In this document: positions 36,789 to 54,539 of the stretch, in pieces
How the letters are laid out: every line of letters starts with the position of its first letter
How positions within the stretch are numbered: the first letter of the stretch is position 1
NCBI GenBank assembly: GCA_016125225.1
Contig: WGME01000028.1
Location: 1-64,000, forward strand
Reading direction: 5' to 3'
From: a bacterium
GTDB lineage: Bacteria; Planctomycetota; Planctomycetia; Planctomycetales; Planctomycetaceae
DNA: 64,000 nt
Notes under the pieces: generated by a model
What the model saw: the letters and a program-made list of their open reading frames with translations, nothing else
Database searches by the model: none
What the model was told of the DNA's origin: nothing
Position numbers and translations under genes: made by a program

Positions 36789-39074
36789 ATGAACCTCTGG
36801 CTGACCAATCATTTCTTCAATCCGACACTGCTCGCCGGCGGTGCGGCTTTGATTGCGCTGCCAGTTATCATTCACCTCATCAACCGGCTACGTTATCGGC
36901 GGGTGAAATTCGCGGCGATGGAATTTCTGCTGCAAAGTCAGCAGAGAAACCGCCGACGAATTTTGCTCGAACAGCTGCTGCTGCTGCTCATGCGAATGGC
37001 GATTGTCGCAGGCATCGTGATGTTGATCGCCCGGCTGGTCCTCGCCCCCTCTGAGATGTCGCTGTTTCGCGGGGCCAAATCGCATCATGTCGTGCTTTTG
37101 GATGACAGCGGTTCGATGCGGCAGCGCTGGGGCGAAACCTCGGCATTTCAGGAAGCCTTGACGGTTATCAATCAACTCTTATCAGAGGGTGCCCAGCGGC
37201 CGAATACACAGACATTCTCATTGCTGAAGCTCTCGCATCCCGATCAACCCTTTGCATCCCAGCGTGATATCGATGAAGCATTAGTGCTGGAAATGGCGAC
37301 CAAGCTGGAACCGCAAGTGTTTTCCAGCACGCATCAGCAGCTCGATTTGATCGCCGGGCTGAAGTCGGCTCAGAAATACCTGAAAGATGAAAAAGGGGCC
37401 GTGCAACATCTGCACGTGATCTCCGATTTCCGTGAACGGGACTGGAAGGATCAGAAGGCCATCGCCGCGATTCTGGAAGAACTATCGGCGAAGAATGTCA
37501 CCGTCAACCTGGTGAAGACCGTTCCCGATGCCCCCACGAACTTGGCGGTCACGGAACTGACGGCCGCGGTCCAGGTCGCAGCGGCGGGTGTCCCGTTGCG
37601 GCTGAAAGTCGGGGTGGCGAATTTCGGTGTGGATGCCGCTCAGGACGTGCGCGTGACCTTGACCGATGATGGCGTGAAACTCCCCGTCACGGTTTTGCTC
37701 GATCGCATTGATCCGGGAACGACTGCTTATCAGGATGTCGATATCCGCCTCGCCACGCCGACACAGCACCGGTTGTCGGCCGTGATCGATGCCGATGTTT
37801 TACCGCAAGACAACACACGGTTTCTGGCGGTCGATGTGTCCCCCACCATTCCGGTGCTGATCATCGAAGGGACCACGACGACCGATGCTTCGAGCTTTGT
37901 GGCCGATGCATTAGCCGCCGATCCGGTCAGCACGGGGGTGGCTGTCACGCTCGACACTCCCGACGGTTTGCGTCGCCGGAACCTGCAGGAATATCGGGTC
38001 ATCTATCTGTTGAATGTCCCCGAACTCCCGGCCGATGCTATCTCGGCCGTCGAAGACTATGTCAGTCTCGGGGGCGGGCTCGTCTGGTTCACCGGTGATT
38101 CTGTAAGACCAGCCCACTATCGCGACGCGTTATGGGCCGAAGGGGCAGGCCTGTTTCCGATCCCGCTTGGTGACAGTGCGGCCGATTTGCCGGTCGACCC
38201 TACGGTTGTGGAAGTGGACCTCGTTCCGAGTGATCACCCTCTCTTTGCCATCATGCAGGGACAGGACAATCCGTTTATCGCCAGTGTCCATATCCAACGG
38301 TACTCGACGGTAGTGGACGATTGGGTGCGTGATGATCAGCGACGCGGCGACCAGGTCCGCACCTTGGCCTGGCTGAGAAATCGGGCTCCGCTGATTGTCG
38401 AGCGTGTGCAGGGAACAGGGCGTATCGTGGCCTGCCTGACCACCGCGGACCCCATCTGGAACGACTGGGCCCGTAATCCCAGTTATGTCGTGTTTCAGTT
38501 GGAACTGCTGAAGTACGTCGCTCGGCAAGATCGTGGATTGCCGTTACGGACTGTCGGCGAACCGATGCGGATCGCACTGGACCCCGCGAATTATCTGGAA
38601 ACCGTCGAAGTCACCTCACCCGCGGCGGAAGGGGAACGGACCACACGGTTGCAGGCGGCGCCGGAACCCATTGAATCGGCAGCCGACGAAACCACGGCAG
38701 AACCAGAAGCCACTCCGGCCGCAGTGCAGTTGGTCGCGGAGTTCAAGGAAACGGACGAACCGGGCATCTATCAACTGCAACTGCTCAATCAGGCGCAAAC
38801 GGCGGAACGCAAAATTCTGGCCTACAACGTGCCGGTCGCGGAAAGTGAGCTGGCATTAGCCACCACGGCGAACCTCAGAAAACGCATCGGGAATGCAGCT
38901 GGCGTGCAGATTCAGGAACCTGGACAGTTCCAATGGCTGCAAGGGGAAGAAGCCGGTTCGGAAATTCGCCAATGGTTGCTTTGGGTCCTGCTCGCATTGC
39001 TGATCGGTGAGCAACTGCTGGCCTACCGCATGAGTTATCATCCGAAAGTCAGTTGGGCAGGAGCCGCCGCATGA
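36789..39074 (+). CDS. BatA/VWA-domain membrane protein
   Basis: A 761-residue membrane protein. The N-terminal BatA domain has two membrane helices flanking the conserved stretch LINRLRYRRVKFAAMEFL (about 10-85). A VWA domain follows with the MIDAS D-x-S-x-S at Asp105-Ser107-Ser109 (LLDDSGSM). Then come extracytoplasmic beta domains, a glutamine-amidotransferase-like segment (YRVIYLLNVPELPADA...GGGLVWFTGD) and a C-terminal membrane helix (LLWVLLALLIGEQLLAY). BatA-type proteins accompany MoxR/DUF58 in aerotolerance-type operons. Its stop overlaps the next gene's start (ATGA). Confidence 0.88.
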   Translation: MNLWLTNHFFNPTLLAGGAALIALPVIIHLINRLRYRRVKFAAMEFLLQSQQRNRRRILLEQLLLLLMRMAIVAGIVMLIARLVLAPSEMSLFRGAKSHHVVLLDDSGSMRQRWGETSAFQEALTVINQLLSEGAQRPNTQTFSLLKLSHPDQPFASQRDIDEALVLEMATKLEPQVFSSTHQQLDLIAGLKSAQKYLKDEKGAVQHLHVISDFRERDWKDQKAIAAILEELSAKNVTVNLVKTVPDAPTNLAVTELTAAVQVAAAGVPLRLKVGVANFGVDAAQDVRVTLTDDGVKLPVTVLLDRIDPGTTAYQDVDIRLATPTQHRLSAVIDADVLPQDNTRFLAVDVSPTIPVLIIEGTTTTDASSFVADALAADPVSTGVAVTLDTPDGLRRRNLQEYRVIYLLNVPELPADAISAVEDYVSLGGGLVWFTGDSVRPAHYRDALWAEGAGLFPIPLGDSAADLPVDPTVVEVDLVPSDHPLFAIMQGQDNPFIASVHIQRYSTVVDDWVRDDQRRGDQVRTLAWLRNRAPLIVERVQGTGRIVACLTTADPIWNDWARNPSYVVFQLELLKYVARQDRGLPLRTVGEPMRIALDPANYLETVEVTSPAAEGERTTRLQAAPEPIESAADETTAEPEATPAAVQLVAEFKETDEPGIYQLQLLNQAQTAERKILAYNVPVAESELALATTANLRKRIGNAAGVQIQEPGQFQWLQGEEAGSEIRQWLLWVLLALLIGEQLLAYRMSYHPKVSWAGAAA

Positions 39075-41527
39075 CGCTGCCGTTCTTTTCCCACTTGCCG
39101 TGCTGGCTGCTGGCGGACACTGCTGGTTCGTGGACGTCGCGGGAACTCGACTGGCCCGATACCGTCGCGGGGGGGTTGCTCCTCGTCTTTGGTTCCCTGG
39201 CGGTCCTGGCCTGGGTGATCTGGCTGTATCGCCGCGACACCCAAGAGTTGCCGCTGGGTTGGCGACTGCTGTTGGCAGGATTGCGGATCAGCGCTCTGGG
39301 CGGGTTGCTGATCATCGCCTTGAATCCTCAAGATCGAACACAACGGACCGCGTTCCGGCCATCCCGTGCGATTGTGCTCATCGACACATCCCTGTCGATG
39401 CGACACCCGGCCTCAGAAATGACTAAGGGAGCCACCACGGGGGAAAGCCGCACGGCAGCGATCCAAAACTGGCTGAAATCCTCGCCGTTTTTGTCGACCC
39501 TGCAACGCGAGCACGAGGTGAGCATTTTCAGTTTCGATACGGCACTCAATGGCCCGGTGGCCGTGCTACCTTATCGAGACCCTGATGCAGAGAAACCGGC
39601 GGCATCTTCTTCTCCCGCGACTCCGGCGCTCGACTGGATCGAGACCCTGCAACCACAAGGAACCGAGACACGCTTGGGAGAAGCCTTGGGAGAAGTGATT
39701 CGTCAATCGGCGGGACGCACGCTCTCGGGGATTGTCGTCGTGACCGATGGTGGCCAGAACGCCGGCGTCGATCCCATCACCGCGCACGATCGAGCCATCG
39801 CTGCCAAGGCCCGGTTGATTGCTGTCGGGGTCGGCAGTGTGGAACAACCTCTCAACGTGCAGATCGCCGACATCCAGTCGCCAACCGATGTTCAACTGGG
39901 TGATAGCTTCGATCTGACCGGTTATGTGCAAGCGCAAGGTCTCGCGGGTCGCGATGTGAAGGTCGAACTCCTCGCTGCACAGGATGGCCAGAATGAAGCT
40001 CCGCTGGCCATCTCGACTCAGAATCTCACCCTACCGGATGATGGCCTGGCAGCCGAACTGAAATTCAACATTCAGCCGGTGGGCGAGGGCGGCTGGAAAT
40101 ACACTCTGCGTGTGCAACCCACCACCGCGGTTTCCGAATTCAATCAACAGGACAACGAACAGACCGTCTCGGTGCGAGTCTTCGATCGTCCGACGCGCGT
40201 GCTCTTGTTTGCAGGCGGCCCGATGCGCGACTATCAGTTCGTGCGGAACCTGCTGTATCGCCACAAGTCGATCGATGTCGATGTGCTGCTGCAAACCGCC
40301 GCGGTCGGATCGAGTCAGGAATCTGACAATCTGCTGGCCCAATTCCCGGCGACTCGCGAACAATTGTATGAATACGATGTGATCATCGCCTTTGATCCCG
40401 ACTGGCGACAGATTCCGGCCGAATCGATTCTGCAATTATCGGACTGGGTCGACCAGGAGGGGGGCGGACTCGTGCTGGTTGCGGGCGATGTCTTTACCGT
40501 TCAACTCGCGTCCGCCGCCGATCAGGCCAGTCCGCAACAACTGCAATTATCACCACTCAAAGATCTGTATCCGGTGGTGCTCAACTCCTACCTTGCGGAA
40601 ATGCGCTTCGATAACAGTTCGTCACAACCGTGGCCGATTGAATTTACCCCGGAAGGTCAACGCGCTGAGTTTCTGCAACTCACCGACGATCCGCTCACCT
40701 CACTGGCCCGTTGGAAAGAGTTCGCTGGCTTCTACCGTTGCTATCCCACATCCGGAGCAAAGGCGGGAGCCACGGTGCTCGCCCGTTTCAGCGATCCCCG
40801 TTCGCAGAATGAATACGGCTTCCCGGTATTGCTCGCCGAACAGTTTTTCGGGCAGGGCCGTACGCTGTATCTCGGCAGTGCCGAAGTCTGGCGGCTGCGT
40901 GCCGTTTCCGATGCCGACTACGATCGTTTCTGGATCAAAACCATTCGGGAAGTGGGGCAGGGGAGAACGAAACGCGGGACGCGCCGCGGGGTGTTGCTGC
41001 CGGAATCCCGCAAGCTGCTGCTCGGTCAAACGGCGCGGTTACGGGCTCGCTTATTGGACGCCCAATTCCAACCCCTCGCCATGAATGAAGTACGCCTGGA
41101 AGTGATCGACCCGGCTGGCAAACCCATGCTCCCCAGTCCACGACTGCGACCCGACCCGAGTCGCCCCGGCGAATATGTCGGCGACTTCCGTGTCAGCCAG
41201 GCGGGGGTTTATCGACTGGAGTTGCCGGTTCCGGAATCGAACGAACAAATCACCGATGAACTCGTGGTCGCGCTACCAAAGCTCGAAGATCAGGATGTCC
41301 GGCAGAACGTCGCCATGCTGACCGATCTGGTGCGTGACACCGGCGGCGAAGTCCTGACACTCGAAACCGCGACAGCCCGGTTGCCGGAATTGCTGCAGTC
41401 GCGCGGGGAACTCTTTACGATCGACGAGCGTCTCCAATCGTTGTGGGATCGCGGTTGGGTGATGTATTTACTGGTGGGTTTACTGGCTGCAGAATGGTTA
41501 ACACGAAAGTTGCTGAAGCTGGCGTGA
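39071..41527 (+). CDS. Second large VWA-domain membrane protein
   Basis: An 818-residue membrane protein with two N-terminal helices (about 33-53 and 66-84). A VWA domain carries an intact MIDAS D-x-S-x-S at Asp105-Ser107-Ser109 (LIDTSLSM) and later VVVTDGGQNAG. CARDB-like beta domains follow, then a glutamine-amidotransferase-like fold (VIIAFDPDWRQIP...GGGLVLVAGD) and a C-terminal helix. The architecture parallels the preceding gene but without the BatA motif, so the two may form a heteromer. Start at the ATGA overlap; the longer frame to 39053 is not needed. Confidence 0.85.
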   Translation: MTLPFFSHLPCWLLADTAGSWTSRELDWPDTVAGGLLLVFGSLAVLAWVIWLYRRDTQELPLGWRLLLAGLRISALGGLLIIALNPQDRTQRTAFRPSRAIVLIDTSLSMRHPASEMTKGATTGESRTAAIQNWLKSSPFLSTLQREHEVSIFSFDTALNGPVAVLPYRDPDAEKPAASSSPATPALDWIETLQPQGTETRLGEALGEVIRQSAGRTLSGIVVVTDGGQNAGVDPITAHDRAIAAKARLIAVGVGSVEQPLNVQIADIQSPTDVQLGDSFDLTGYVQAQGLAGRDVKVELLAAQDGQNEAPLAISTQNLTLPDDGLAAELKFNIQPVGEGGWKYTLRVQPTTAVSEFNQQDNEQTVSVRVFDRPTRVLLFAGGPMRDYQFVRNLLYRHKSIDVDVLLQTAAVGSSQESDNLLAQFPATREQLYEYDVIIAFDPDWRQIPAESILQLSDWVDQEGGGLVLVAGDVFTVQLASAADQASPQQLQLSPLKDLYPVVLNSYLAEMRFDNSSSQPWPIEFTPEGQRAEFLQLTDDPLTSLARWKEFAGFYRCYPTSGAKAGATVLARFSDPRSQNEYGFPVLLAEQFFGQGRTLYLGSAEVWRLRAVSDADYDRFWIKTIREVGQGRTKRGTRRGVLLPESRKLLLGQTARLRARLLDAQFQPLAMNEVRLEVIDPAGKPMLPSPRLRPDPSRPGEYVGDFRVSQAGVYRLELPVPESNEQITDELVVALPKLEDQDVRQNVAMLTDLVRDTGGEVLTLETATARLPELLQSRGELFTIDERLQSLWDRGWVMYLLVGLLAAEWLTRKLLKLA

Positions 41528-41570: not shown

Positions 41571-44024
41571 ATGATGGCTGACACACCACTATCACTGGCA
41601 CCCCAAGTTAAGCAGACGTTGAAGTCGCTACGGCGGCGGATTCGTCAGTATGTCTTCTGGGAAGGACTGGCTCTCGTAGCCGTTCTCGCCGGGGTGCTCT
41701 TCTGGGGCAGCTTCCTGATCGATGCGGTCTATTTCACCGCCAGCCGACTCGAACTTCCCCGCTGGTTCCGTGCTCTTTTTCTCGTGGGCACCATCACCGC
41801 ATTGGTGGTTGGCTTGTGTATCTGGGTGGGATTCCGTGCATTTGGCCGCGTGCGTCGCCGGGCGTTGGCGCTACTCTTAGAACGTCGCTTTCCCGAACTG
41901 GGTGACCGTTTGATTACTGCAGTGGAAGCTTCGGAGCAGGCTTGGGTGCCGCATTCCGACTTCGAACAGGCGATGGTGTTGCGCACGGTTTCGCAGGCCG
42001 CGGCGGCTGTGGAAAAACTGGACCTCAGCCGCGTGTTCGATGCGGGTCCCATTCGCCGGGCCATCATCTCCGCTGTGGTGCTGGTGGCTTCGGTCCTCGG
42101 TCTCGCCGTGGTCAATACGGCCGCGATGGAACGCTGGATCGATGGCTACTGGCGGTTGGAACCGCATTACTGGCCCCGCAAGACAGACCTGCTGGTGCAG
42201 GTGCAAAGCCTGCCGAGTGATGAATTGCATGACTTCACCGAAGGACGGTTTCGGCATCCGCGCGGCGGCGACTTGCAACTGGTCATCACGCCCGTCGAAG
42301 GAAAAGTGGTTCCGGAACGCGTACGGCTCGATTACCGTCTGCGGGGCGGAAGCTGGAAGCGAACATTTCTCAGCCAGCCGGGAGACCAGCCCTTTCAGCA
42401 CCTGTTCCCGGCGTTGCTCGATGAAGTCGAATTCTGGGTTTCCGGTGGAGATTATGCCGCATCAACCCCCTGGCGGATTGAAGTGGTCGATCCCCCGCGG
42501 CTCGATGCCGTCTCTCTCGCCGCCCGTTATCCAGACTACACGCAGCTGAATGATACCGGCCCGCAAGGTGCCCCGGTGCGAACCATCCTGCCGGTGCTGG
42601 GGACGCAGATCACGTTGCCCATGGGTACCGACGTGCTGTTTTCAGGAACCGCGAACAAGCCTCTGTCCGCCATTCGCATCGAAGTGGATGGTGGCAGCGA
42701 GCGTTTTGAATGGACGTTGAACCGCGAATCAGAGACTGCATCTAACATCAGCGAGATCATGGTGCGGGCCCACGATGATCTGCCGCAAAAGCAGGTCCGA
42801 ATTCCCGCCGAGATCGCAGCGAACTGGCTTTCGACCGATCGCACCGGCTTTACAATTCCATTGGTTCTGCAGAAAGACGGAGAAGTCGCCTTGCGAGAAA
42901 CGCTGACCGCTCTAGCGGACAATTCGGCCGAATGCCCGGCGGTCTTCCCCTGGCCGGCGGATACCAATCTTCGCATCCATCTGGTTGATGCCGACGGCAT
43001 CGTCAGTCCGGAACCTTTGCGACTGGCCATCAATGCGGAGCCCGATCTCCCCCCCAGTCTCGAAGTGGAACTCACGGGCATCAGTTCGTCGATCACGCGC
43101 CAGGCCCGCATTCCTGTGGCAGGACTTATTCGCGATGACTACGGCGTCGCCCAGGCTCGGTTTGATTATCTCATCGATACCGAGACCGATTGGCAGCCGA
43201 GGGAATTTGCGAACCCCGTCACCGAGACTCTAACCGAAGTCCCGCTGGCCCGGTCGGAGAACGAGCCTTACCAGCGGTTTGATGTTTTGCCACTCGATTT
43301 GTCGCTCAAGCAGAAACTGACACTGACTGTGTTCGCCGCCGATGGCGATACGCTGAATGGTCCCAACATTCAACGCAGCCAGAAGTTCGTTTTCACCATT
43401 GTCTCCGTCGAAGAGTTGCTGTCTCTGCTGTATGCCAAAGAACTCAACCTGCGGAAACGGTTCGAGCAGATTCTGACCGAACTCAAGGATCTGCGGCAAG
43501 ATCTCGGCGTCCACAAAGAACGAGCAGGAATGCTGGCAACGACCGAGGGTGAGCCTCGCCGCGAGATCGAATTTGCCCTCGTTGCTTGTGCGGAGCGGTC
43601 CCTGCATGGCGTGCGGAAAAACGCCGCCGAAATGCTGTCGATCGAGCAGGCGGTTCGCGAAATCCGCGATGAAATGGTGAACAATGCCGCGGAAACGCCG
43701 CAGAATATGGATCGGCTCGAAGCAAAAATTCTGGGCCCGCTCACCATCACCAACACCGAGGGTTTTCCCGCCGTCGATGTCGCTTTAGGCCTATTTTCGC
43801 TGGCCAATCAGAAAGGGCAGGACCGAATGGCTCCTTTGAGCCGATCGGAACAGGAACTGGATCGTGTTATCACCCGGCTGGAACGGGTGTTGCTTGAAAT
43901 GCGAAAATTAGAGACATTCCACGAGGCAATAGAGTTGCTCAAGTCCATCATGTCGGAACATGATGGACTGTCGGAGGACACGAAGACGAAGCGTAAAGAA
44001 AAAGCACTACAGGCTTTGGAGTAA
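41571..44024 (+). CDS. Large membrane protein, DUF4175-like
   Basis: An 817-residue protein. Three hydrophobic helices lie in the first 180 residues (about 26-50, 66-88, 154-176), with an Arg-rich cytoplasmic loop containing RRRALALLLERRFPELGDRLITAVE, a motif typical of DUF4175 and related planctomycete proteins. A beta-rich extracytoplasmic region (about 180-590) is followed by a coiled-coil C terminus. No enzymatic motif is recognised. In DUF4175-type systems the following gene is often a low-complexity coiled-coil protein, as here. ATG at 41571 or 41574. Confidence 0.7.
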   Translation: MMADTPLSLAPQVKQTLKSLRRRIRQYVFWEGLALVAVLAGVLFWGSFLIDAVYFTASRLELPRWFRALFLVGTITALVVGLCIWVGFRAFGRVRRRALALLLERRFPELGDRLITAVEASEQAWVPHSDFEQAMVLRTVSQAAAAVEKLDLSRVFDAGPIRRAIISAVVLVASVLGLAVVNTAAMERWIDGYWRLEPHYWPRKTDLLVQVQSLPSDELHDFTEGRFRHPRGGDLQLVITPVEGKVVPERVRLDYRLRGGSWKRTFLSQPGDQPFQHLFPALLDEVEFWVSGGDYAASTPWRIEVVDPPRLDAVSLAARYPDYTQLNDTGPQGAPVRTILPVLGTQITLPMGTDVLFSGTANKPLSAIRIEVDGGSERFEWTLNRESETASNISEIMVRAHDDLPQKQVRIPAEIAANWLSTDRTGFTIPLVLQKDGEVALRETLTALADNSAECPAVFPWPADTNLRIHLVDADGIVSPEPLRLAINAEPDLPPSLEVELTGISSSITRQARIPVAGLIRDDYGVAQARFDYLIDTETDWQPREFANPVTETLTEVPLARSENEPYQRFDVLPLDLSLKQKLTLTVFAADGDTLNGPNIQRSQKFVFTIVSVEELLSLLYAKELNLRKRFEQILTELKDLRQDLGVHKERAGMLATTEGEPRREIEFALVACAERSLHGVRKNAAEMLSIEQAVREIRDEMVNNAAETPQNMDRLEAKILGPLTITNTEGFPAVDVALGLFSLANQKGQDRMAPLSRSEQELDRVITRLERVLLEMRKLETFHEAIELLKSIMSEHDGLSEDTKTKRKEKALQALE

Positions 44025-44075
44025 ACAACCCGAGCCCACCGGATGTCGTGTCCCGACGGGTTGAGGAGGACGAAC

Positions 44076-45944
44076 ATGCTCGCACGTCCAATTGAATGGT
44101 CATTCCCCGGGCGGGTTCTGCTGATAGTCTGGGCACTCGTTCTCAGCTTGACCACCTCGGCCTTTTGTCAAACTGACAATTCTTCGGCGACGAAAGAACC
44201 TGCCGAGGATGTCCCTCTGGCGACCCGACAAGAGGCCCTCAGCCTCCGCTACCAGCGATTCGAAACCACGCTGCTGCAACTCGGCGAATACCTCCGCAAG
44301 ACCGATCCTGACCGGGCGGAGCTTTTGCTGCGAACGTTGGGCAAAAGCAAGGAAAGCCGCGTTTCCGACCAGTTCATCGAATTGGTCGCTCTCCTCGAAC
44401 GGGGCCAACTCGGCGACGCGATCGATGGACAGGAAACGCTTCACCAACAGATGGCGCTGCTGCTGACCCTGCTGCAGAGCGAAGACCGAGTCGGCGATCT
44501 CGAAAAAGAACAGCAACGCATTCAGGCCTTGATTCGCGACGTCGACAAACTGATCTCCAAACAGACCGATGCCCGCGCTGCCACCGAACGTGGCACACCG
44601 GGGTCCGATGGTTCCGGGCAGCAGCAAAAAGTCGCCGATCAAACGGAACAGATCCTCGGCAAGATCGATCAACAAGACGCGGAACGGGCCAACGGGAAGA
44701 AGGACGAGTCTTCGGGTTCCGGCAAACCCTCTGACAGTGCATCGAAGCCGGGGGACTCTGGACAGAAGCCCGAGGGAGACAAACCGTCTGGGGAAGAGAA
44801 TCCTCAGGAATCGCCGAAAGGCAAAGATCCCTCTTCGAAAGAACCTAAGCCCTCTGATGACCCGAAGAAATCCGAGCCGATGCCGAGTTCGCCGTCCGAC
44901 TCTCCTTCCGGAGATAAGCCGAGCGAGCCTTCGGAATCGCCGAGCTCGCCGGGCTCATCGAAATCTCCCAAGTCTGACAAGCCATCGGAGTCATCCCCTT
45001 CGAAGAGTTCTCCGAACGGCCAGTCGCCCATGCCCGAGTCCCCTTCGCAGGATTCGCCGCCCTCGTCACCGGGTGATGAAAAACAAGACGAGTCACCGAT
45101 GGATTCTGGAGATGCGTCCCCCTCTCAGGAACGCACTCCCGGACGGGAAGAACTGCAGCGGGCCAAGCAGGAGATGGAACGGGCCATCAAAGAACTGCAG
45201 CAGAAGCACCGCGAAGCCGCTTCCGATCGGCAGGACAAAGCCCTGCGGGAGTTGATGGCTGCCAAGGAAAAGCTCGAAGAGATTCTGCGGCAACTGCGGG
45301 AAGAAGAACAGGAACTGTTGCTGGCGGCCTTGGAGGCCCGCTTCCGTGACATGCTGGCCCGACAGATCAATGTCCATAACGGCACGTTAGGTCTGGCAGC
45401 CATTCCCGTGGACCAACGGACCGACCGGCAACGCAGTCGGGCCATCGAACTCGCCCGCAATCAGGACGAAGTCGCCTTATTGGCAGCCAAAGCCCTGACG
45501 CTGCTGAAAGAAGAAGGCTCATCCATCGCCTTCCCGGAAGCTGTCGTCCAGATTCGCGATGACATGCTCACATCGGCCCGTCGGCTGGAACGAGTTGAGG
45601 TCGACGAACTGACGCAGACCATCCAGAAAGACATCATCGAAGCCCTGGAAGAAATGCTCGATGCTCTGCAGAAAGAGATGGAGAAGGCGAAAGACAAGAA
45701 AGACGGACAGCAAGCTCAGCAGGGCCAACAGCAAGACCCCTCGCTGGTCGATGTCCTCTCGGAACTTAAAATGCTGCGGTCATTGCAGTACCGCGTGAAT
45801 CGCCGGACCAAACAACTGGGACGGCTGGTCGATGGCGAACAGGCCGCCGAGGCCGATGTGGTCCAGCAACTGCGGGAGCTCTCGATCCGGCAGGCCAAAA
45901 TCTTTCAGACAGCCGACGATCTGGCCGCGGGGAGGAATCAATGA
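44076..45944 (+). CDS. Exported Ser/Pro/Lys-rich coiled-coil protein
   Basis: A 622-residue protein with a signal peptide (about 1-33), a helical N-terminal domain to about residue 185, and a disordered linker of roughly 165 residues made almost only of Ser, Pro, Lys, Glu, Asp and Gly (about 190-355). Long charged coiled coils follow ([18 protein letters not shown]..., [19 protein letters not shown]). A strong GAGGAGG precedes the ATG at 44076; the frame to 44043 lacks one. The linker suggests a flexible envelope spacer. The gene is translationally coupled to the next by ATGA. Function unknown. Confidence 0.7.
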
Positions 45945-47002
45945 ACACGATGACATTGCCCCTGCGGAGACTCTGGGCTCCAATTCTTGCCCTGGGTCTT
46001 GCCCTCGTGAGTCAGGCAACCCTAAGCGTCGCAGCCGAAGCGCGTTACCTGCCAATCTCATCCGCCGAACTTCGCTATCGGTTCACTCAACAACTCGCGA
46101 CCTCAAAACTGCCCGCCACAGAACAAACGGCAGTGCTCGCTTTGTGGGACGAAGTCTCTACGGAAACCGATGCCACCCAATTACTTGAACAGGCCTTGCG
46201 TGCCTGGAGCCAGATGGACCCGGAGTTCGCCAAGTTCTACGAGCAATGCCAGCACGTCACTGCGGTTTCGGTCCCGGAGACAACCACGATCCTGGGACGA
46301 TTGACGCTCGATGCCTTTCAGCAGGCCAATGCCCAAGCTTATCTCGGTCGGCGTCTCGCTGAGGCACGACTGTATGATGAAGCCCTGGAACAATTTTCGA
46401 GTGTCGAACTGGCACGGGTGATTGACCCCGCTTCAACGCTGTTCTATCACGCGGTCGCCGCGTATGAAGTGCTCGACCTCCCGGTGGCGTTATCCAAGCT
46501 CACGATACTCCGCACGCAGACGGATCAGGTTCCTGCTCGGTATCTGACCGTAGCGGACTTGATGCAGCGCGATCTGCAACAGATGGAACCGCAATCGCTC
46601 GGCGAAGTCGCCCGGTTGATGCACGATTCCGAACGTCGGCTCGATCTGGGCCGCGCGGGCGAACAGGTCCAGGAAGTGCAGGACAAGATCGTGGCCAATC
46701 TCGATGAGCTGATCAAAAAGATCGAAGCCCAGCAGGGGGGCGGCGGCGGTAGCGGAAGTGGTTCCAGTAACGCCAATGAATCGTCCGCTCCCGCTGATGA
46801 TAGCCGCGTGAAAGGCACGACCGCTCCCGGAGAAACCGACGACAAAAAATTCAGCAAGGAAGGCCGCTGGGGTGACCTCCCGGAAAAAGAACAGACGGCG
46901 GCCAAGAACCTGATCAATCGCGAATTCCCTTCGCATTACCGACAGGCCATCGAAACCTACTTCAAGAAGCTGGCGACGAAGCCGGCTGCTCCTGGCAAAT
47001 AG
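45941..47002 (+). CDS. Exported hypothetical protein of the MoxR/VWA cluster
   Basis: A 353-residue protein with a signal peptide (about 1-31, ending SVAAEA). A helical, TPR-like body follows (AQAYLGRRLAEARLYDEALEQFSSVEL, then HAVAAYEVLDLPVALSKLTIL). Next is a helical segment (DKIVANLDELIKKIEAQQ), a Gly/Ser linker and a C-terminal helical domain (LPEKEQTAAKNLINREFPSHYRQAIETYFKKLA). That last motif recurs at the C terminus of exported planctomycete proteins next to VWA genes. No catalytic motif. The ATG overlaps the previous stop and sits behind GGAGG, so it is co-translated. Confidence 0.65.
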   Translation: MNTMTLPLRRLWAPILALGLALVSQATLSVAAEARYLPISSAELRYRFTQQLATSKLPATEQTAVLALWDEVSTETDATQLLEQALRAWSQMDPEFAKFYEQCQHVTAVSVPETTTILGRLTLDAFQQANAQAYLGRRLAEARLYDEALEQFSSVELARVIDPASTLFYHAVAAYEVLDLPVALSKLTILRTQTDQVPARYLTVADLMQRDLQQMEPQSLGEVARLMHDSERRLDLGRAGEQVQEVQDKIVANLDELIKKIEAQQGGGGGSGSGSSNANESSAPADDSRVKGTTAPGETDDKKFSKEGRWGDLPEKEQTAAKNLINREFPSHYRQAIETYFKKLATKPAAPGK

Positions 47003-47038
47003 GTTGTCCCTGGCTTGGTTGTATAAAGGTTGCTCGAC

Positions 47039-48247
47039 GTGCAGATCGCTACCTGGTTGATGATGTCCGCCTTCCTGCAAGGCCCGACGGTGGATGTCAC
47101 CACCCTCGCCGGGGAATCGCTCAAAGGACAACTGCGGTCCCTCTCGGCAGAGCACCTGGAACTTGATCGCGACGGCACGCCGCTCCAGATTCCCACCAGC
47201 GATCTGCTACAGTTGCAGGTGAGTTCGTCAGCCACAGATCCGGCTGTCAATTCGGGGCCCATCGAACTGGAACTGCGGGACGGCTCTCGACTCCGTGGCA
47301 CACAACTCACCGCCACCGATGGCGAACTCCGCCTGCAGCACCCCGTGTTTCAGGAACTGCGACTGCCCCGTGATCGCGTGCATAGCGTGCGGCTCTTGCC
47401 CGATGATGCCGTCGTACGGGGCACCTGGCGCGAACTGGTCTCGCGGACCAAGAAGCAAGATTATCTGGTGGTCCGCAAAAGCGATGTGCTCGATCACCTG
47501 GATGGTGTCATTGGCGCTCTGAGTGACGAGTCTCTCAAGTTTCTGTTTGATGGCGACCAGATCGATGTCAAACGGGCCAGAATTTTCGGTTGGATCTATG
47601 CAGACCTTCCCCCGTCAAAGTCCAGCCCGACAGTCCGCATCGACTTGGGACCGCATGATGTTCTGCAAGTCGCGGCGGTCCGTTGGTCTCCGGCCGGATG
47701 GGAACTGCAACTGACGGGGCAGAAGCCCATCCAAGTTCCCACCGAGAGCCTGAGCAGTATCGATTTCTCCGCCGGCAAGGTCCTTTATCTTTCGACCGTG
47801 GAACCACGCGATGTCGAACAGGTCCATTTCTGGGGGAACCCGGAATTTCCCTTTCCGTATCAACGCGATCGCAACCTGTTCGGACAACCCCTCCGCGTCG
47901 GCACGCGAACCTTCGCCCGGGGTCTGTCGCTCCATTCCAAAACCCGGCTGGTTTACCGCCTGGGTGGTGATTACCGGAAGCTGACCGCAACAGTCGGGCT
48001 CGATCCCGATCTGGAACCGCAATCCGATCCCAAAGCCACGGTCAATCGGGCCCAACTGGTGATCCGTGGCGATCGTAAGATTTTATGGGATGCCGAAGTG
48101 AAAGCCGGTGATCCGCCGGTCAATCTCGACCTGCCCGTTACCGATGTTATCGAACTCGAAATTCTGGTGGATTATGGTCCCGGCATCAGCTACGAACGCG
48201 ATGTGGGCGACCGTGTGCATCTCGCCGATCTGAAGGTGTTGAAATGA
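47039..48247 (+). CDS. NPCBM-domain-like protein
   Basis: A 402-residue protein. N-terminal beta repeats contain GESLKGQLRSLSAEHLELDRDGTPLQIP and similar units. The C-terminal third (about 275-400) resembles an NPCBM/NEW2 carbohydrate-binding module (GLSLHSKTRLVYRLGGDYRKLTATVGLDPD, VIRGDRKILWDAEV, IELEILVDYG). A weak hydrophobic segment at the N terminus may be a signal. AAAGG lies 9 nt before the GTG at 47039; TTG at 47030 is the alternative. The stop overlaps the protease gene start (ATGA). It may bind glycan for the neighbouring exported proteins. Confidence 0.7.
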   Translation: MQIATWLMMSAFLQGPTVDVTTLAGESLKGQLRSLSAEHLELDRDGTPLQIPTSDLLQLQVSSSATDPAVNSGPIELELRDGSRLRGTQLTATDGELRLQHPVFQELRLPRDRVHSVRLLPDDAVVRGTWRELVSRTKKQDYLVVRKSDVLDHLDGVIGALSDESLKFLFDGDQIDVKRARIFGWIYADLPPSKSSPTVRIDLGPHDVLQVAAVRWSPAGWELQLTGQKPIQVPTESLSSIDFSAGKVLYLSTVEPRDVEQVHFWGNPEFPFPYQRDRNLFGQPLRVGTRTFARGLSLHSKTRLVYRLGGDYRKLTATVGLDPDLEPQSDPKATVNRAQLVIRGDRKILWDAEVKAGDPPVNLDLPVTDVIELEILVDYGPGISYERDVGDRVHLADLKVLK

Positions 48248-50010
48248 GACATGATGTTCTCTTCCCGTTCATGGGGAAGCGGGGGCAGCCAGGATGGCTG
48301 GTCGCGTTTCTGTGCCTGGTCAGTTCCGTCTCGGCGGCCGATTCTTCCGTGCTGGAAGCGGAAACCGCCCGGGCTGACATGATCACCCGCGTGGCCCCAT
48401 CCGTGGTCGCTATTTTTGCGTCCTCAGGCGACGGGGGCGGCTCTGGCGTTCTGATCAGTCCTGACGGGTACGCTGTCTCGAACTTCCACGTCACCAACGG
48501 GTCCGGCAACTTCATGAAGTGCGGACTGAATGATGGTCGGCTGTACGATGCCGTGATAGTCGGCATCGATCCGACGGGTGATGTGGCCTTGATCAAGCTG
48601 CTGGGCCGCGACGATTTTCCCTCCGCCACCATCGGCAACAGCGATCTCGTGCGAGTCGGCGAATGGGCGTTTGCCATGGGCAATCCCTTTCTGCTCGCCA
48701 CCGATTTTCAGCCAACCGTGACCGCCGGTATTGTCAGCGGAGTTCATCGCTATCAGTATCCCGCAGGCACCTTTCTCGAATATGCCGACTGCATTCAAAC
48801 CGACGCGTCGATCAACCCCGGTAACTCGGGCGGGCCGTTGTTTAATGCCCGTGGCGAACTGATTGGCATCAATGGCCGTGGCTCGTTCGAGAAACGTGGC
48901 CGGGTCAATATCGGGGCGGGCTATGCCATCTCCATCAATCAGGTGATGCACTTCCTTGACCATTTGAAGAGTGGTCGAATTGTTGACCATGCCACATTGG
49001 GAGCAACGGTCCGCACAAGTCTCGATCATGGCGTGGTCGTCGATGAGATCCTCGAATTTTCCAGCGCCTATCGCCGTGGTCTGCGCGAAGACGATGAAAT
49101 TGTGATGTTCGGCGGCCGACCCATCGGGAGTGCCAATCAGTTCAAGAACGTCCTGGGCATTTATCCCGATGGCTGGAAAGTGCCGCTGACCTATCGCCGC
49201 GATGGCACGAAGACCGACATCATGGTCGAACTTCGACGGTTGCATCAGGTGACGGAAATGCTGCCGAACCAGGGTCAGAAAAAGCCCAAAGGACCGCAGC
49301 AACCCATGCCTGAACGGAAGCCGGGTGATGCTCCCGACCCGCATGCCGCGCAGGAGCCGGTTGCTGCCCCGGAAGAATGGAAGCATCTGTTCGAAGCCCG
49401 TGAAGGGTTCGCCAATTATTACTTCAATCGCCTGGCACAAGACCGTTTGTTCAAGAGCCTGGAAGAGTACGCTGGCCTCAAGTCGAATGAGACCCGGTGG
49501 AAATTTGCTGGGACATTGGCCGACGGCCAGGAGTTCGTGGCTACGCTGGCTCCGCAAGGTTTGGGATTGAAGATTGGTAAGTCTGGCATTTATTTCCAAC
49601 CCCTCGATGGCAGCGACCCGGTGGATGAGCCTGCAGGGACAGGCGGATTCCTGACCGCTTTGGAACAACTCAAGCTGTTGTTATCTCGCGGTGCCGAGGC
49701 CTTCAGTGTGGTGACTTACATCGGCAGCGAACCGTTGGATGGTGTCGGCCCGAAGGTCGATGTGCTGCAGACGGATGTCGGGCTGGTGCAAGCCCGCTGG
49801 TATTTCTCGCAGACATCGAGTCGGCTGGTTGGTTTCGATTCCTCACTGGCGAGAGATGTCGATGCCTGCGAGGTGCGGATTCACTCGGTCGACGATTTCC
49901 AGGGTAAGCGATTCCCGTCGGCGTTTACGGTGCGCAGCGGGGAACGCGAATTCGGTTCATTCCGCGTGAATGCCCTGGAAATCCAGCCGCTGGCAGGGAA
50001 GATGCAGTGA
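48244..50010 (+). CDS. HtrA-like serine protease (S1C) with PDZ and unknown C-terminal module
   Basis: A 588-residue exported protease. After a signal peptide, the trypsin-like domain has an intact triad: His82 (SNFHVT), Asp113 (TGDVALIK) and Ser195 (NPGNSGGPL). One PDZ domain spans about 265-340 (LGATV...SSAYRRGLREDDEIVMFGGRPI). A Pro/Lys-rich hinge (about 340-375) leads to a C-terminal domain of about 210 residues that is not part of DegP. Its beta-rich end (DVDACEVRIHSVDDFQGKRF) vaguely recalls LolA-like folds, without certainty. Coupled by ATGA to the gene before and by GTGA to the pseudoprotease after. Confidence 0.88.
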   Translation: MRHDVLFPFMGKRGQPGWLVAFLCLVSSVSAADSSVLEAETARADMITRVAPSVVAIFASSGDGGGSGVLISPDGYAVSNFHVTNGSGNFMKCGLNDGRLYDAVIVGIDPTGDVALIKLLGRDDFPSATIGNSDLVRVGEWAFAMGNPFLLATDFQPTVTAGIVSGVHRYQYPAGTFLEYADCIQTDASINPGNSGGPLFNARGELIGINGRGSFEKRGRVNIGAGYAISINQVMHFLDHLKSGRIVDHATLGATVRTSLDHGVVVDEILEFSSAYRRGLREDDEIVMFGGRPIGSANQFKNVLGIYPDGWKVPLTYRRDGTKTDIMVELRRLHQVTEMLPNQGQKKPKGPQQPMPERKPGDAPDPHAAQEPVAAPEEWKHLFEAREGFANYYFNRLAQDRLFKSLEEYAGLKSNETRWKFAGTLADGQEFVATLAPQGLGLKIGKSGIYFQPLDGSDPVDEPAGTGGFLTALEQLKLLLSRGAEAFSVVTYIGSEPLDGVGPKVDVLQTDVGLVQARWYFSQTSSRLVGFDSSLARDVDACEVRIHSVDDFQGKRFPSAFTVRSGEREFGSFRVNALEIQPLAGKMQ

Positions 50011-51107
50011 AAATGACATCCTCGATACAGCACGATATGACCATCCACGACCTCCATCAGCGACCACGATCTCGCAAAACAAGTGCATGGGTGCTGGTCT
50101 GTTTTGGGCTGATGTTGGCGTGCGGTCTGGCGCTGCCGCTGGCAGTGCAGGCACAAAGCGTCGTCGAAACCGTCGAACAGGTTTCGCCCAAAGTGGTGAA
50201 GATCTTTGGGGCGGGTGGACGCAAGAATCTTTACGCCTATGGCAGTGGCATCCTGGTCTCTCCAGAAGGGCACATTGCCACTGTCTGGAGTCACATTCTC
50301 GATGGTGAATCGGTCACTGTCGTGCTGGACGATGGCCGCCGTTTCAATGGCCGCATTCTCGGGGCCGAACCGCAACTCGATCTGGCCGTCTTGAAGATTG
50401 ATGCGGAGGATTTGCCCTATTTCGATCTCGATGCCAGCACCAGTGATGCTGGTCCGGGGACCACCGTCCTGGCCTTCAGCAATGTTTTCAAAGTCGCGAC
50501 CGGGGACGAGCCAGTCTCTGTGATTCACGGCGTGATCGCCGCCAAAACTCGGCTTGCGGCCAAACGTGGAGTCTTCGAGGCACCCTACTCCGGCCCCGTC
50601 TATGTTGTCGATTCGGTCACCAACAATTCCGGGGCGGCGGGCGGTGTGCTCACCACGCGAGATGGCCGCCTGCTGGGCATGCTGGGAAAAGAGCTCAAGA
50701 ACAATGTCACGCATACCTGGCTGAACTATGTCGTTCCCATGTCAGAACTGAAGTCGCCGATCCAACAGATCGTGACCGGCAATTTCAAACCCCGATCTTC
50801 TGACAGCGCCGAGTCGGCTGTGACCGTCCGTCGATACGATCCCCGGGATTTCGGCCTTGTGCTGATTCCCAATGTGGTGGCGCGGACACCGGCCTACATC
50901 GATCGAGTGGTTCCCGGAACACAGGCCGCGCAGGCGGGTCTGAAAGTCGACGACCTGGTGGTATTCGTCGACGACCGACTGGTCCCCTCGTGTGCGTCCT
51001 TGCTCGATGAGTTGGGACAATTGGAACCGGGCGACCCCGTTACTCTGGTCGTCCGTCGGGGTGATAAACTGGAGACGGTGCAGCTGACGGCTCCTCGCAA
51101 TCGTTAG
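50007..51107 (+). CDS. HtrA-like pseudoprotease (catalytic Ser replaced by Ala) with PDZ
   Basis: A 366-residue exported protein with the same fold as its upstream neighbour. His96 (VWSHIL) and Asp125 (QLDLAVLK) are kept. At the nucleophile position, the motif aligned to GNSGGPL reads GAAGGVL, so the serine is Ala211. A PDZ domain covers about 275-355 (VVARTPAYIDRVVPGTQAAQAGLKVDDLVVFVDD). An N-terminal signal anchor lies around 26-48. The GTG start overlaps the protease stop, with AGGGAA in front. It probably binds substrate or regulates the active protease rather than cleaving. Confidence 0.85.
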   Translation: MKMTSSIQHDMTIHDLHQRPRSRKTSAWVLVCFGLMLACGLALPLAVQAQSVVETVEQVSPKVVKIFGAGGRKNLYAYGSGILVSPEGHIATVWSHILDGESVTVVLDDGRRFNGRILGAEPQLDLAVLKIDAEDLPYFDLDASTSDAGPGTTVLAFSNVFKVATGDEPVSVIHGVIAAKTRLAAKRGVFEAPYSGPVYVVDSVTNNSGAAGGVLTTRDGRLLGMLGKELKNNVTHTWLNYVVPMSELKSPIQQIVTGNFKPRSSDSAESAVTVRRYDPRDFGLVLIPNVVARTPAYIDRVVPGTQAAQAGLKVDDLVVFVDDRLVPSCASLLDELGQLEPGDPVTLVVRRGDKLETVQLTAPRNR

Positions 51108-51128
51108 CACGGCTTGTTACAGAACTGG

Positions 51129-53075
51129 ATGCTGTCCATGACGTTCGCGCTCGTAATGTCCCTCGGCTTGACGTTGGCATCGGCCGATCCGGCTGCCAGT
51201 CTCGAAGCCCAAACCGACCGGGCCGTGCAGCAAGCGGTGGCCTTGGTCTCTGCCTCGGTGGTACGGATCGATACAGTGGGGGGGCTCGAACAGCTCGAAC
51301 CGGGTATGGCCTCCGCCGGAGCCACTACCGGGCTGGTCGTTTCCGAAGACGGCTATCTCATTTCGTCCGCATTTCACTTCGTGTCCAAACCGACCTCGAT
51401 CCTGGTGACCTTAGCCGACGGCCGCCGCTTACCGGCTCAGTTGGTGGCCACCGATCGTCAACGGATGGTGACATTACTCAAAGTCGCAGCGGAACGATTA
51501 CCTGTCCCGCAGCCGGCTCCGCGTGAGTCATTCCGTGTCGGCCAGTGGGCCATTGCGGTCGGACGGACCCTGGACGTGGAAAGCCCGAGTGTTTCCGTCG
51601 GCATTGTCAGTGCTTTGAATCGCGTGTGGGGCAAGGCCCTGCAGACCGATGCCAAAGTTTCCCCCGTCAATTACGGCGGCCCGCTACTCGATATTGACGG
51701 TCGAGTGCTGGGTGTTCTGGCTCCCTTGTCCCCCTATGAATCGGGCGAAACGGCGGGTGTCGAGTGGTATGACTCGGGCATTGGTTTTGCCATTCCGTTT
51801 GTCGACGTCCTCGCGGTGGTCGATCGTCTGAAGAGTGGGGACGATCTCTTGCCGGGGCTGATGGGAATCAGCTTCCAAACGAAAGACCTCGTCCGTGCCG
51901 AGCCCGTGATCGATAAAATCCGGTTCGGGTCACCGGCGGAAAAGGCGGGTCTAAAAGAGAAAGACCGGATCACCGCCGTCGATGGCCAGCCTGTGGTTCG
52001 CTTGGCGGAAATGAAGCACATCATGGGTGTGAAATACGCCGGGGAAACCGTGCGGTTCACCATCAAACGTGGCGACCAATCGCAAGAATTTGATGTCCCC
52101 TTAGTGGGAGAACTGGCCCCCTTTCAACCTGCTGTTCTGGGAATCTTGCCGGTCCGTGCACCGAGTGAAACGGGAGTGGTTGTGCGTGCCGTCCTGCCCG
52201 AGAGTCCTGCAGCGAAGGCGGGTTTGCAGCCGCAAGACCGCTTGGTCGAAATCGGCAGTACCGCCGTCACCAATGCGACTGAATTGCACGAGGCCTTGTT
52301 GCGATTGCTACCAGGAACCGAGGTCGCCTGTCAGGTTCAACGCGGCGACGAAAAGATTGCCGTCACCTTAACCACGGCCGCTATTCCCAACACGGTGCCC
52401 GCCACGGTCCCGGCTCAGTCTCCGTTCGGTATGGACGAGCGACCAGAGAAACTGGCAACCGGCCAAATCAATGAAACCCTGGCTGGTCACGACCGTCCCT
52501 ATTGGATGTACGTACCCACGCGTTACCGCCCGGATGAGCCCCTGTCGCTGGTCCTGTTCCTGCATCCCACGCTCAACCCCCTGGAACGGGAAGTCCTCGC
52601 GGCCTGGAAAACGGAATGCGAATTACGCGGCATTCTGCTGCTCGCTCCCAAACTCGACGGCCAGCCGGGTTGGTCGCCGAACGATCTCGAATTCCTCTCG
52701 GATCTGATTGGCCATGTCAAAGAGAACTACACGATCGCCCCCGGTCGTACCGTGGTGATAGGCATGGAAACCTCGGCACCAATCGCTGCACTGTTCGCCT
52801 TTCGCCAGCCGGAACTGGTCAACGGGCTGACGCTCATCGATACGAAGCCACTCGGTCAGGTTCCGGAAAACACGCCCGAGCGACTGTTGTCACTCTACGT
52901 CATGGTGCGTGGCAATTCCCTGGAGGGCGCGAAATGGCCTCAGGCTATTGATACGCTGCAGAAGCTCGGCTATCCGACGGTGTTCAGCCAAGTGGAACAA
53001 GCCGACAGCCCGTATCCCACGGCCGAGCAAAATGCCGAACTGGCCCGCTGGGTGGATCTACTCGATCGGCTGTAA
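51129..53075 (+). CDS. HtrA-like pseudoprotease with two PDZ domains and a degenerate alpha/beta-hydrolase domain
   Basis: A 648-residue exported protein. The trypsin-like domain (about 30-215) keeps His83 (SAFHFV) but has Met113 for the Asp (RQRMVTLLK) and Tyr182 for the Ser (VNYGGPL). Two PDZ domains follow (about 225-310 and 315-405). The C-terminal 215 residues resemble an esterase-type alpha/beta hydrolase (YWMYVPTRYRPDEPLSLVLFLHP), but the nucleophile elbow reads GMETS instead of GxSxG and no terminal His is evident. Both catalytic units thus look dead. Start uncertain: ATG 51129, ATG 51138 or TTG 51114. Last gene of the run, converging on the L,D-transpeptidase gene. Confidence 0.82.
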   Translation: MLSMTFALVMSLGLTLASADPAASLEAQTDRAVQQAVALVSASVVRIDTVGGLEQLEPGMASAGATTGLVVSEDGYLISSAFHFVSKPTSILVTLADGRRLPAQLVATDRQRMVTLLKVAAERLPVPQPAPRESFRVGQWAIAVGRTLDVESPSVSVGIVSALNRVWGKALQTDAKVSPVNYGGPLLDIDGRVLGVLAPLSPYESGETAGVEWYDSGIGFAIPFVDVLAVVDRLKSGDDLLPGLMGISFQTKDLVRAEPVIDKIRFGSPAEKAGLKEKDRITAVDGQPVVRLAEMKHIMGVKYAGETVRFTIKRGDQSQEFDVPLVGELAPFQPAVLGILPVRAPSETGVVVRAVLPESPAAKAGLQPQDRLVEIGSTAVTNATELHEALLRLLPGTEVACQVQRGDEKIAVTLTTAAIPNTVPATVPAQSPFGMDERPEKLATGQINETLAGHDRPYWMYVPTRYRPDEPLSLVLFLHPTLNPLEREVLAAWKTECELRGILLLAPKLDGQPGWSPNDLEFLSDLIGHVKENYTIAPGRTVVIGMETSAPIAALFAFRQPELVNGLTLIDTKPLGQVPENTPERLLSLYVMVRGNSLEGAKWPQAIDTLQKLGYPTVFSQVEQADSPYPTAEQNAELARWVDLLDRL

Positions 53076-53086
53076 AACCGTATCGG

Positions 53087-54331
53087 TCATGGACGAACAA
53101 CCACTTCCGACCCGACGGTCAGGAAGTCGTAGACGTTCACAATATCCTTATCCCCCAGGCGGACACATCCGCGTGAGGCTGCACTGCCGATCGAATCGGG
53201 TTCGATGGTGCCGTGGATTCCATAACTGTTGCCCAGGTCAATCCAGCGTTCTCCGAGTGGGTTGGCAGGATCATCTCCCGCAATCACATGGCCGTCGGGG
53301 TCGGTGTATTGCGGGTTGACCACTTTGTTCAGCACGGCAAAGCGGCCAATCGGTGAACTGCGGTCCCTGCCGATGCCGACCGGAAACCGCCGTACATAAT
53401 ATCCCTGCAGATGAATGGTCAGCGAATAGTCATCGAGTTCCACCACCCCGGAAAATGGCCCGCGAACGACTTTCAACCGTCGGCCGGCCTGAATGCGTTT
53501 AGCATCCACACGATTCAACTTCGAGAGATATTCCCAGGTGACGTGATAGTGCGCGGCGATCTGCTCGAGTCGATCTCCCGGCTCGATGACATACGGTTCC
53601 ACGAAGTGGGGCTGAGCCTGAAAAAAGATCGTCGCGGCAGACCGGTCAAGTCGTTCCACCAAAGCCGCCCGATCGGATCGCCGTTTCCAATAGGCTTCTG
53701 ACAAGATCCGATGAGCGGCAAGCACTTCACCGCTTTTCAGTTTGGCATCGTATTGAGCAAACAGGGTTTCCAGCGGCAGAGTCGCCACATCGGCATCGCC
53801 TTCAATGGTGCTGGACAGCGGGGGTTCCTCGGCGAGTTCAGGATTTACGAACTGGGGCACTTCTGCGGATATCTGGCTGGGTTCTGATGCGGTCTCGGTG
53901 AATCCGGCGGCCTGAACGCCGCTGGCTGGGGTCCGCCGATAGGGTTGGAGAGTCGCCATCGGCGATGCATCTGTTGGCAAACGCTGGGGCGGGTCCGCAG
54001 CCATCGGTATTTCTGGACCTTCCGACGGTTCCTGTTGTTGAGCGAAAATTTCGCGATCCAGATCGGTCAACCCAGCCGAGCGGGGTGTTTTCATGGGGTC
54101 TGGTGGCTCTGGGAACATGGAGGGATCGCGCTGTTCCACCAACGGAGCAGGCATCTCCAAGGGAAGGTCATGCGAATCTTCGGCCTGTGCCGGGTCGAGG
54201 GTGCCCGTTCGGGCCGGTAACAATTCGACGGGAACCCAGCCCTGCCGCCAGGCAAAACCCAATCCAGCGCCCATTACGAAGATCAGCAGCACGGTTCGCA
54301 GAGAGCGTCCCAACCCATTCTCAGACGACAT
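53087..54331 (-). CDS. LysM-L,D-transpeptidase (YkuD family)
   Basis: A 414-residue envelope enzyme. A membrane anchor (about 10-28, TVLLIFVMGAGLGFAW) is followed by a long Pro/Glu-rich disordered region to about 195. A helical segment and one LysM module follow (about 245-290; VIEPGDRLEQIAAHYHVTWEYLSKLN). The C-terminal YkuD domain carries the catalytic motif HGT...SRGCVRL, with His373 and Cys389. Such enzymes form 3-3 peptidoglycan cross-links or attach proteins, evidence for peptidoglycan in this organism. GGAAGG lies 8 nt before the ATG at 54331, which outweighs the upstream in-frame ATGs. Confidence 0.92.
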   Translation of the reverse strand: MSSENGLGRSLRTVLLIFVMGAGLGFAWRQGWVPVELLPARTGTLDPAQAEDSHDLPLEMPAPLVEQRDPSMFPEPPDPMKTPRSAGLTDLDREIFAQQQEPSEGPEIPMAADPPQRLPTDASPMATLQPYRRTPASGVQAAGFTETASEPSQISAEVPQFVNPELAEEPPLSSTIEGDADVATLPLETLFAQYDAKLKSGEVLAAHRILSEAYWKRRSDRAALVERLDRSAATIFFQAQPHFVEPYVIEPGDRLEQIAAHYHVTWEYLSKLNRVDAKRIQAGRRLKVVRGPFSGVVELDDYSLTIHLQGYYVRRFPVGIGRDRSSPIGRFAVLNKVVNPQYTDPDGHVIAGDDPANPLGERWIDLGNSYGIHGTIEPDSIGSAASRGCVRLGDKDIVNVYDFLTVGSEVVVRP

Positions 54332-54539
54332 AGCAGACACCTTCCGTGGCATCGGCAAAAATCAGCGGAAATCGACCCGATATTCCCGTAGTCCCGATTT
54401 GTAGCACAACCCGGCTATTGCAGAAAGTGGGAGTCTGAACGGGAACATGCTGTGCAACAGGAACAGACTCGACGCCGACACGGGCCTTCCGTTACCCTAC
54501 GTGGTGTCACGCAAAGGGTTTCGTTCAAGGAATGCACGG

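Follow-up and report, generated by a model that had tools for sequence, protein, structure and literature searches.

Members of the HtrA family are usually homotrimers, and the wild-type forms of E. coli DegP and DegS and of Legionella DegQ are catalytically competent and act as homo-oligomers. Dead HtrA partners are already known from magnetosomes and from plants. The closest precedent for the locus studied here is the MamE/MamO pair of magnetotactic bacteria, an active HtrA and a trypsin-fold pseudoprotease encoded in one gene island; there, MamO switches on MamE-dependent proteolysis although it is not catalytic itself, and it binds metal, a residue other than Gly at its position 193 is argued to block the oxyanion hole, and the degenerate HtrA copies found beside active ones in these bacteria fall into three clades with three origins (PMC4794232). 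Degenerate domains and paralogues also exist among plant Deg proteins, where Deg7 joins one active HtrA protease domain and one degenerate one in a single fused protein (PMC3473262). Arabidopsis Deg5 and Deg8 are described as two HtrA paralogues in one hetero-oligomer (PMC4877387), and neither is among the two inactive Arabidopsis Degs named elsewhere, Deg6 and Deg16 (PMC3473262). Here we describe a planctomycete variant of this arrangement, a tandem of three HtrA genes (P1, P2 and P3) on contig WGME01000028.1 of a member of the Planctomycetaceae (assembly GCA_016125225.1), lying within the stretch of 64,000 nucleotides that was analysed (the window):

48244 to 50010, plus strand: P1, open reading frame of 588 amino acids, intact HtrA-type serine protease
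50007 to 51107, plus strand: P2, open reading frame of 366 amino acids with a GTG start, HtrA pseudoprotease with one PDZ domain
51114 to 53075, plus strand: P3, 653 amino acids from a TTG start or 648 from the ATG at 51129, HtrA pseudoprotease

We lean towards the view that P1, P2 and P3 probably constitute one functional envelope protease unit, in which one cutter works with two dead adaptor or regulator proteins. The planctomycete triplet shares with MamE/MamO the pairing of an active HtrA with a trypsin-fold pseudoprotease, but here the dead copies number two, the nucleophile position being Ala or Gly in the first and an invariant Tyr in the second, and both the phylum and the gene setting are different; MamO, which like P3 has a residue other than Gly at position 193, carries Thr at the nucleophile position and has a TauE-like domain and a metal site (PMC4794232). 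Unlike Deg7, the triplet consists of three separate genes. With DegP, DegS and DegQ the three proteins share the fold and the order of domains, protease first and then PDZ, whereas those enzymes differ from P2 and P3 in being competent. No report of planctomycete HtrA pseudoproteases or of such a triplet was among the open-access literature matches listed, and the main text of a planctomycete proteome paper names neither HtrA, PDZ, MoxR nor NPCBM (PMC8567305).

The catalytic residues were followed through 60 loci of the order, 60 loci of the class outside the order, which were chosen for possessing P2, and 20 loci from the rest of the phylum, hand-picked from 30 non-class genomes matching P3, so that counts over these last loci say nothing about how frequent the triplet is there. 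Those relatives that bear names in their records are planctomycetes. The joint alignments hold 130 rows for P1, 135 for P2 and 114 for P3; rows of 150 bits or less were excluded (the 20 phylum loci gave 19 P1, 15 P2 and 20 P3 rows), as were the P1 row of L052, a different HtrA of 1151 amino acids, and, at an earlier stage, the P3 row of L067 (22.7% identity). In P1 the triad His82-Asp113-Ser195 is intact, as the original prediction had it: Ser is present in all 130 orthologues, and His and Asp in 129, the remaining row being incomplete. Past the protease domain, P1 continues with a PDZ domain and a linker rich in Pro, and its last 200–230 amino acids or so matched none of the Pfam families. 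This C-terminal region (window positions 49321–50007) is partly conserved among relatives.

In P2 the nucleophile position is Ala211, within a TNNxGxxGG motif. This replacement of Ser, read earlier from the letters alone, is borne out by profile alignments that place Ala211 on the nucleophile of Legionella DegQ, both in the S193A variant (3pv3) and in the wild type (3pv2), and none of the 135 orthologues has an intact triad. The one row with Ser at the nucleophile position (L197) has Gln in place of His. Gly193 is kept in every row, and positions 194–195 are mostly small residues within the class. A displaced nucleophile that restores activity, for which Ser208, three residues before Ala211, had been singled out as the case that could overturn the prediction, is very improbable: Ser208 aligns with the Pro of INPGNSGG, its column reads Pro in 106, Ser in 28 and Ala in 1 of the 135 rows, the DegQ alignment favours Ala211 as the nucleophile position, and His and Asp are retained together in only 54 of the 135 rows. 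We rejected Ser208 as a candidate.

The losses in P3 go further. Tyr187 occupies the nucleophile position, Met118 the Asp position and Val185 position 193, and the profile alignments place Tyr187 on the nucleophile position of DegP 3otp and on that of the entry 8kic, both of which have Ala there. The changes of Asp to Met and Ser to Tyr had been recognized before under numbers lower by five (113 and 182). Among the 114 orthologues Tyr is found at the nucleophile position throughout, Gly at position 193 never, Asn194 in 111 and the Asp of the triad in one, and Tyr187 belongs to the 16 invariant positions of 383 scored. The retention of His, by comparison, holds for the window protein (His88, previously numbered His83) but is no feature of the family: His occurs in only 6 of 114 orthologues, which makes the window's His88 an exception, and the position is mostly Asn, with a small residue (Asn, Gly, Ala, Ser, Thr, Val or Pro) in 102 rows. 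Orthologues with intact triads at the P2 or P3 loci were looked for, and none was seen among the 135 and 114 rows examined; both proteins are accordingly filed as pseudoprotease homologues.

P3 also has a segment at residues 217–220 (EWYD), directly before SGIGFAIP, in which Tyr219 and Asp220 are invariant in the 114 rows and which could possibly form a P3-specific binding surface. The invariance of Tyr187, Tyr219 and Asp220, together with the metal binding of MamO (PMC4794232), lends something to the idea that P2 or P3 has turned to a new activity, such as metal binding, ligand sensing or a Tyr-based function, and has left proteolysis behind. We regard this as improbable, because the absence of the dead copies jointly with the protease P1, documented below, argues for a role linked to proteolysis.

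Pfam assigns Trypsin_2 followed by PDZ, the domain order of the HtrA/Deg family, to P1, P2 and P3 (Trypsin_2 E values of 2.5e-31, 1e-17 and 1.8e-24, respectively), and their signal peptides were judged by eye. None reaches the cut-off of 416.2 bits of the NCBIfam model for Do family serine endopeptidases (TIGR02037; 230.4, 99.7 and 188.8 bits), and the cut-off of 800 bits for MamE (NF040960) and MamO (NF040961) is likewise unreached, the best scores being 121.8 and 60.7 bits, both from P1. The predicted model of P2 (mean predicted local distance difference test score, pLDDT, 85.5) has DegS 3gdv as its best Foldseek match (E 2.1e-21), and it aligns with MamO 5hm9 over 183 residues with a Z score of 22.3 and a root-mean-square deviation of 2.8, among many HtrAs; that of P3 (mean pLDDT 87.7) has DegQ 4ynn (E 9.1e-33).

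In P3 the protease domain is followed by a pair of PDZ domains and, at the C terminus, by an alpha/beta-hydrolase-like domain (window positions 52446–53072). Of 41 members carrying this last domain, up to 10 give matches to esterase-type families there, and the nucleophile-elbow Ser characteristic of alpha/beta hydrolases of the polyhydroxyalkanoate (PHA) depolymerase-like type is missing from the P3 C terminus: the window protein has Glu552 at the expected position, and Ser occurs there in 6 of the 88 rows that have the domain, so that P3 looks like a double pseudoenzyme. The C terminus scores 29.5 bits against NF050058, below its cut-off of 150; a Pfam match to 'Ndr' at E 0.066 led nowhere, and the VIA-align matches listed for P3 are HtrA rows, none informative on this domain. 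Judged by how far the alignments extend, P3 has neither the second PDZ nor the hydrolase-like domain in 19 of the 20 phylum loci, and both therefore seem to have been gained within or near the class.

The dead copies are as well preserved as the enzyme. The median ratio of nonsynonymous to synonymous substitution rates (dN/dS) is 0.085 for P1, 0.087 for P2 and 0.084 for P3 over 12 close pairs, which remain of 14 after two were dropped for saturated dS and which are partly dependent, since L078/L107 and L058/L105 are the same genomes entered twice. Elsewhere in the same genome, where Trypsin_2 is found at 16 places, all 13 proteins outside the cluster retain the nucleophile Ser, as read by eye from the translated matches; because these 13 keep it and the substitutions in P2 and P3 recur in orthologues, the loss of Ser in the two is more than chance. 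Pseudogene decay of extra tandem copies, which has nothing but the missing catalytic residues in its favour, is a negligible alternative given dN/dS near 0.085, the conserved Tyr, and the wide retention of P2 and P3, each of which has orthologues in 159 of the order's 170 genomes (among good assemblies, in 127 of 130 for P2 and 129 of 130 for P3). We reject it, as dN/dS is equal in the dead copies and in active P1, and the earlier statement that the losses do not look like decay is strongly supported by these equal ratios, by recurrence of the losses in 135 and 114 orthologues and by the co-occurrence of P1 and P2.

Nor is the tandem a recent product of duplication. In a quick tree of 110 protease domains, with support from the Shimodaira–Hasegawa-like approximate likelihood ratio test (SH-aLRT) only, P1, P2 and P3 each form one clade (33 rows; SH-aLRT 99, 98 and 99), the three clades are very divergent from each other, and each holds rows from outside the class. 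The triplet therefore probably predates the class, judging from these sequence relationships; we reject recent duplication on account of the separate clades with their non-class rows, though horizontal transfer may have played a part.

The strongest evidence for one functional unit is the pattern of presence and absence. Over the 397 genomes of the class, for which the joint count covers P1 and P2, the P2 profile matches 339 and the P1 profile 333: 332 genomes have both, seven P2 only (G046, G181, G315, G353, G393, G409 and G415), one P1 only (G411) and 57 neither (phi 0.92), with a stricter threshold for P1 (1e-90) than for P2 (1e-30) and the two lists compared by eye. Both are unmatched in at least 14 genomes of family f2, no member of which appears in either match list, in G174 (f6), and in G178 (f7), whose relatives possess the genes. 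Two genomes of the window's own family, G093 and G110 (88–89% complete), are without P1 and P2, and G110 matches P3. In 18 genomes without P1/P2 the best matches of the P3 profile have E values of 3.5e-50 or weaker; NPGNSGG is intact at each of the four loci that were inspected, and we therefore take these matches to be other HtrAs. Two genomes assembled as a single contig (G005 and G090) retain P1, P2 and P3 at widely separated positions, an arrangement compatible with any form of partnership that acts in trans.

Within the window the triplet stands at the end of a long row of genes on the same strand, upstream of P1:

34747 to 35802, plus strand: MoxR-type AAA_3 ATPase (Pfam), head of the row
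35768 to 36679, plus strand: DUF58/VWA_2 protein (Pfam)
36789 to 39074, plus strand: BatA (aerotolerance regulator N-terminal) plus VWA_2 protein (Pfam)
39053 to 41527, plus strand: second VWA protein of the row (Pfam)
41571 to 44024, plus strand: 'DUF4175' (a tentative label), no Pfam match
44043 to 45944, plus strand: 'Coil' (our own label), no Pfam match
45941 to 47002, plus strand: 'TPR' (our own label), no Pfam match over cut-off
47030 to 48247, plus strand: NPCBM-domain gene (Pfam), directly upstream of P1

The start of P1 overlaps the stop of the NPCBM gene (ATGA), and the GTG start of P2 overlaps the stop of P1 by four bases. P3 begins 6 bases (TTG) or 21 bases (ATG) past the end of P2, so that of the three genes, earlier described as translationally linked, only P1 and P2 overlap. 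P1–P2 and P2–P3 are same-strand neighbours in 56 and 56 of the 60 class loci, 48 and 35 of the 60 order loci and 13 and 13 of the 20 phylum loci. The order NPCBM-P1-P2-P3 is found in 53 of the 60 class loci, and outside the class the triplet also stands behind NPCBM, in 10 of the 20 phylum loci; the longer order Coil-TPR-NPCBM-P1-P2-P3 is found in 27 of 60 order, 47 of 60 class and 7 of 20 phylum loci, contig ends having cut many others. BatA is in place at L091, and DUF58 and BatA are in place at the f2 locus L273. The Coil product, retained in the gene row, is long, charged and of low complexity, rich in Ser, Pro, Lys and Glu. Convergent with P3 lies a gene for a LysM plus YkuD L,D-transpeptidase (53087–54358, minus strand).

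Eight loci (L273–L280) were taken from genomes without the triplet. Four of them, from three genera of f2 (L273–L276), keep VWA-DUF4175-Coil-TPR-NPCBM, with no P1, P2 or P3 following within the stretch; loss of the triplet in f2 is the simpler reading, since the triplet follows NPCBM also outside the class. At the other four (L277–L280) the DUF4175-like gene is longer and Coil is unmatched, and the P3 profile finds one weak match at L277 (47 bits). The TPR profile gives much weaker matches where the triplet is lacking (best E 1e-7 to 1e-25, with none in G212) than in six triplet-bearing genomes (1e-59 or better). At L273–L276 the NPCBM reading frame is larger (895–1069 codons), and the two proteins scanned both match DUF1583.

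The three proteins most likely act as one unit, because the dead copies are equally preserved and, with few exceptions, share their presence or absence with P1. The predicted partnership of the dead copies with the active one is partly supported, by gene linkage, by joint absence and, weakly, by the covariation of evolutionary rates, a weak test over 54 taxa and 105 shared branches in which P1-P2-P3 ranks second of 35 gene triples and, over all branches, P1–P3, P2–P3 and P1–P2 rank 2, 3 and 8 of 21 pairs, with DUF4175–Coil first. Several observations count against a single unit. The covariation of the trio is modest and favours it only mildly, NPCBM-P1-P3 covarying slightly more and the three pairs ranking 4, 6 and 7 on terminal branches, where TPR–P3 comes first. 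Joint absence falls largely within one family and therefore represents few independent events. Of the 170 genomes of the order, 155 have both P2 and P3, eight have one alone and seven have neither, mostly incomplete assemblies; some genera hold P1, P2 and P3 apart, and outside the class only 30 of 392 phylum genomes searched match P3 at 1e-60. The His, Asp and Ser columns of P2 drift outside the order. The stretches from relatives mostly end before MoxR, DUF58 and BatA, and at L045 all three lie upstream on the opposite strand. For MamO, the best precedent, contact with MamE was not detected (PMC4794232).

The rival that we take most seriously, unlikely though it appears to us, is this: P2 and P3 might be independent non-catalytic scaffolds, peptide or PDZ binders or chaperones, that serve the same pathway as their own homotrimers without directly controlling P1. 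Homotrimers are the rule in the family, the three clades are very divergent, P3 has extra domains of its own, and some genomes retain all three genes at separate places. The joint presence and absence with P1 and the four-base overlap, however, suggest a tighter tie.

Returning to the one-unit reading, we suggest that P1 would cut substrate and that P2 and P3 would use their PDZ domains and peptide clefts to bind or present it, or would control P1, or both. P2, with Gly193 kept and mostly small residues at Asn194 and Ser195, would offer an open, non-cutting cleft. The cleft of P3 is probably plugged, given the invariant Tyr, a position 193 that is never Gly and a usually small residue in place of His57; the Tyr would fill the cleft in a fixed conformation and lock loop L1. 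In class members the extra PDZ of P3 and its probably dead hydrolase-like module might provide docking surfaces. In the simplest mechanism P2 and P3 would capture substrate or control P1, either in a mixed oligomer, in which it is plausible that all three reside, or as separate partners. Contact among the three, a dependence of P1 on P2 and P3, and service to the upstream MoxR/DUF58/BatA/VWA genes would follow from this proposal; contact in particular is not to be assumed, since MamO acts without detected MamE contact (PMC4794232). A bolder version, doubtful but possible, is an HtrA machine whose subunits have fixed and separate tasks, in which mixed oligomers of the P1 cutter, an open but dead P2 and a dead, Tyr-plugged P3 that also bears a dead hydrolase module would be tied to a MoxR/BatA-type membrane system and kept through the whole class and other lineages of the phylum. 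If true, this machine would parallel, on the HtrA fold, the protease rings that include dead subunits.

An active paralogue and two dead ones have apparently stayed together since before the class diversified, with selection on the dead ones matching that on the enzyme itself. The role of dead HtrA subunits thereby becomes testable in free-living bacteria, and the triplet may give the planctomycete MoxR/BatA-type gene row a proteolytic output.

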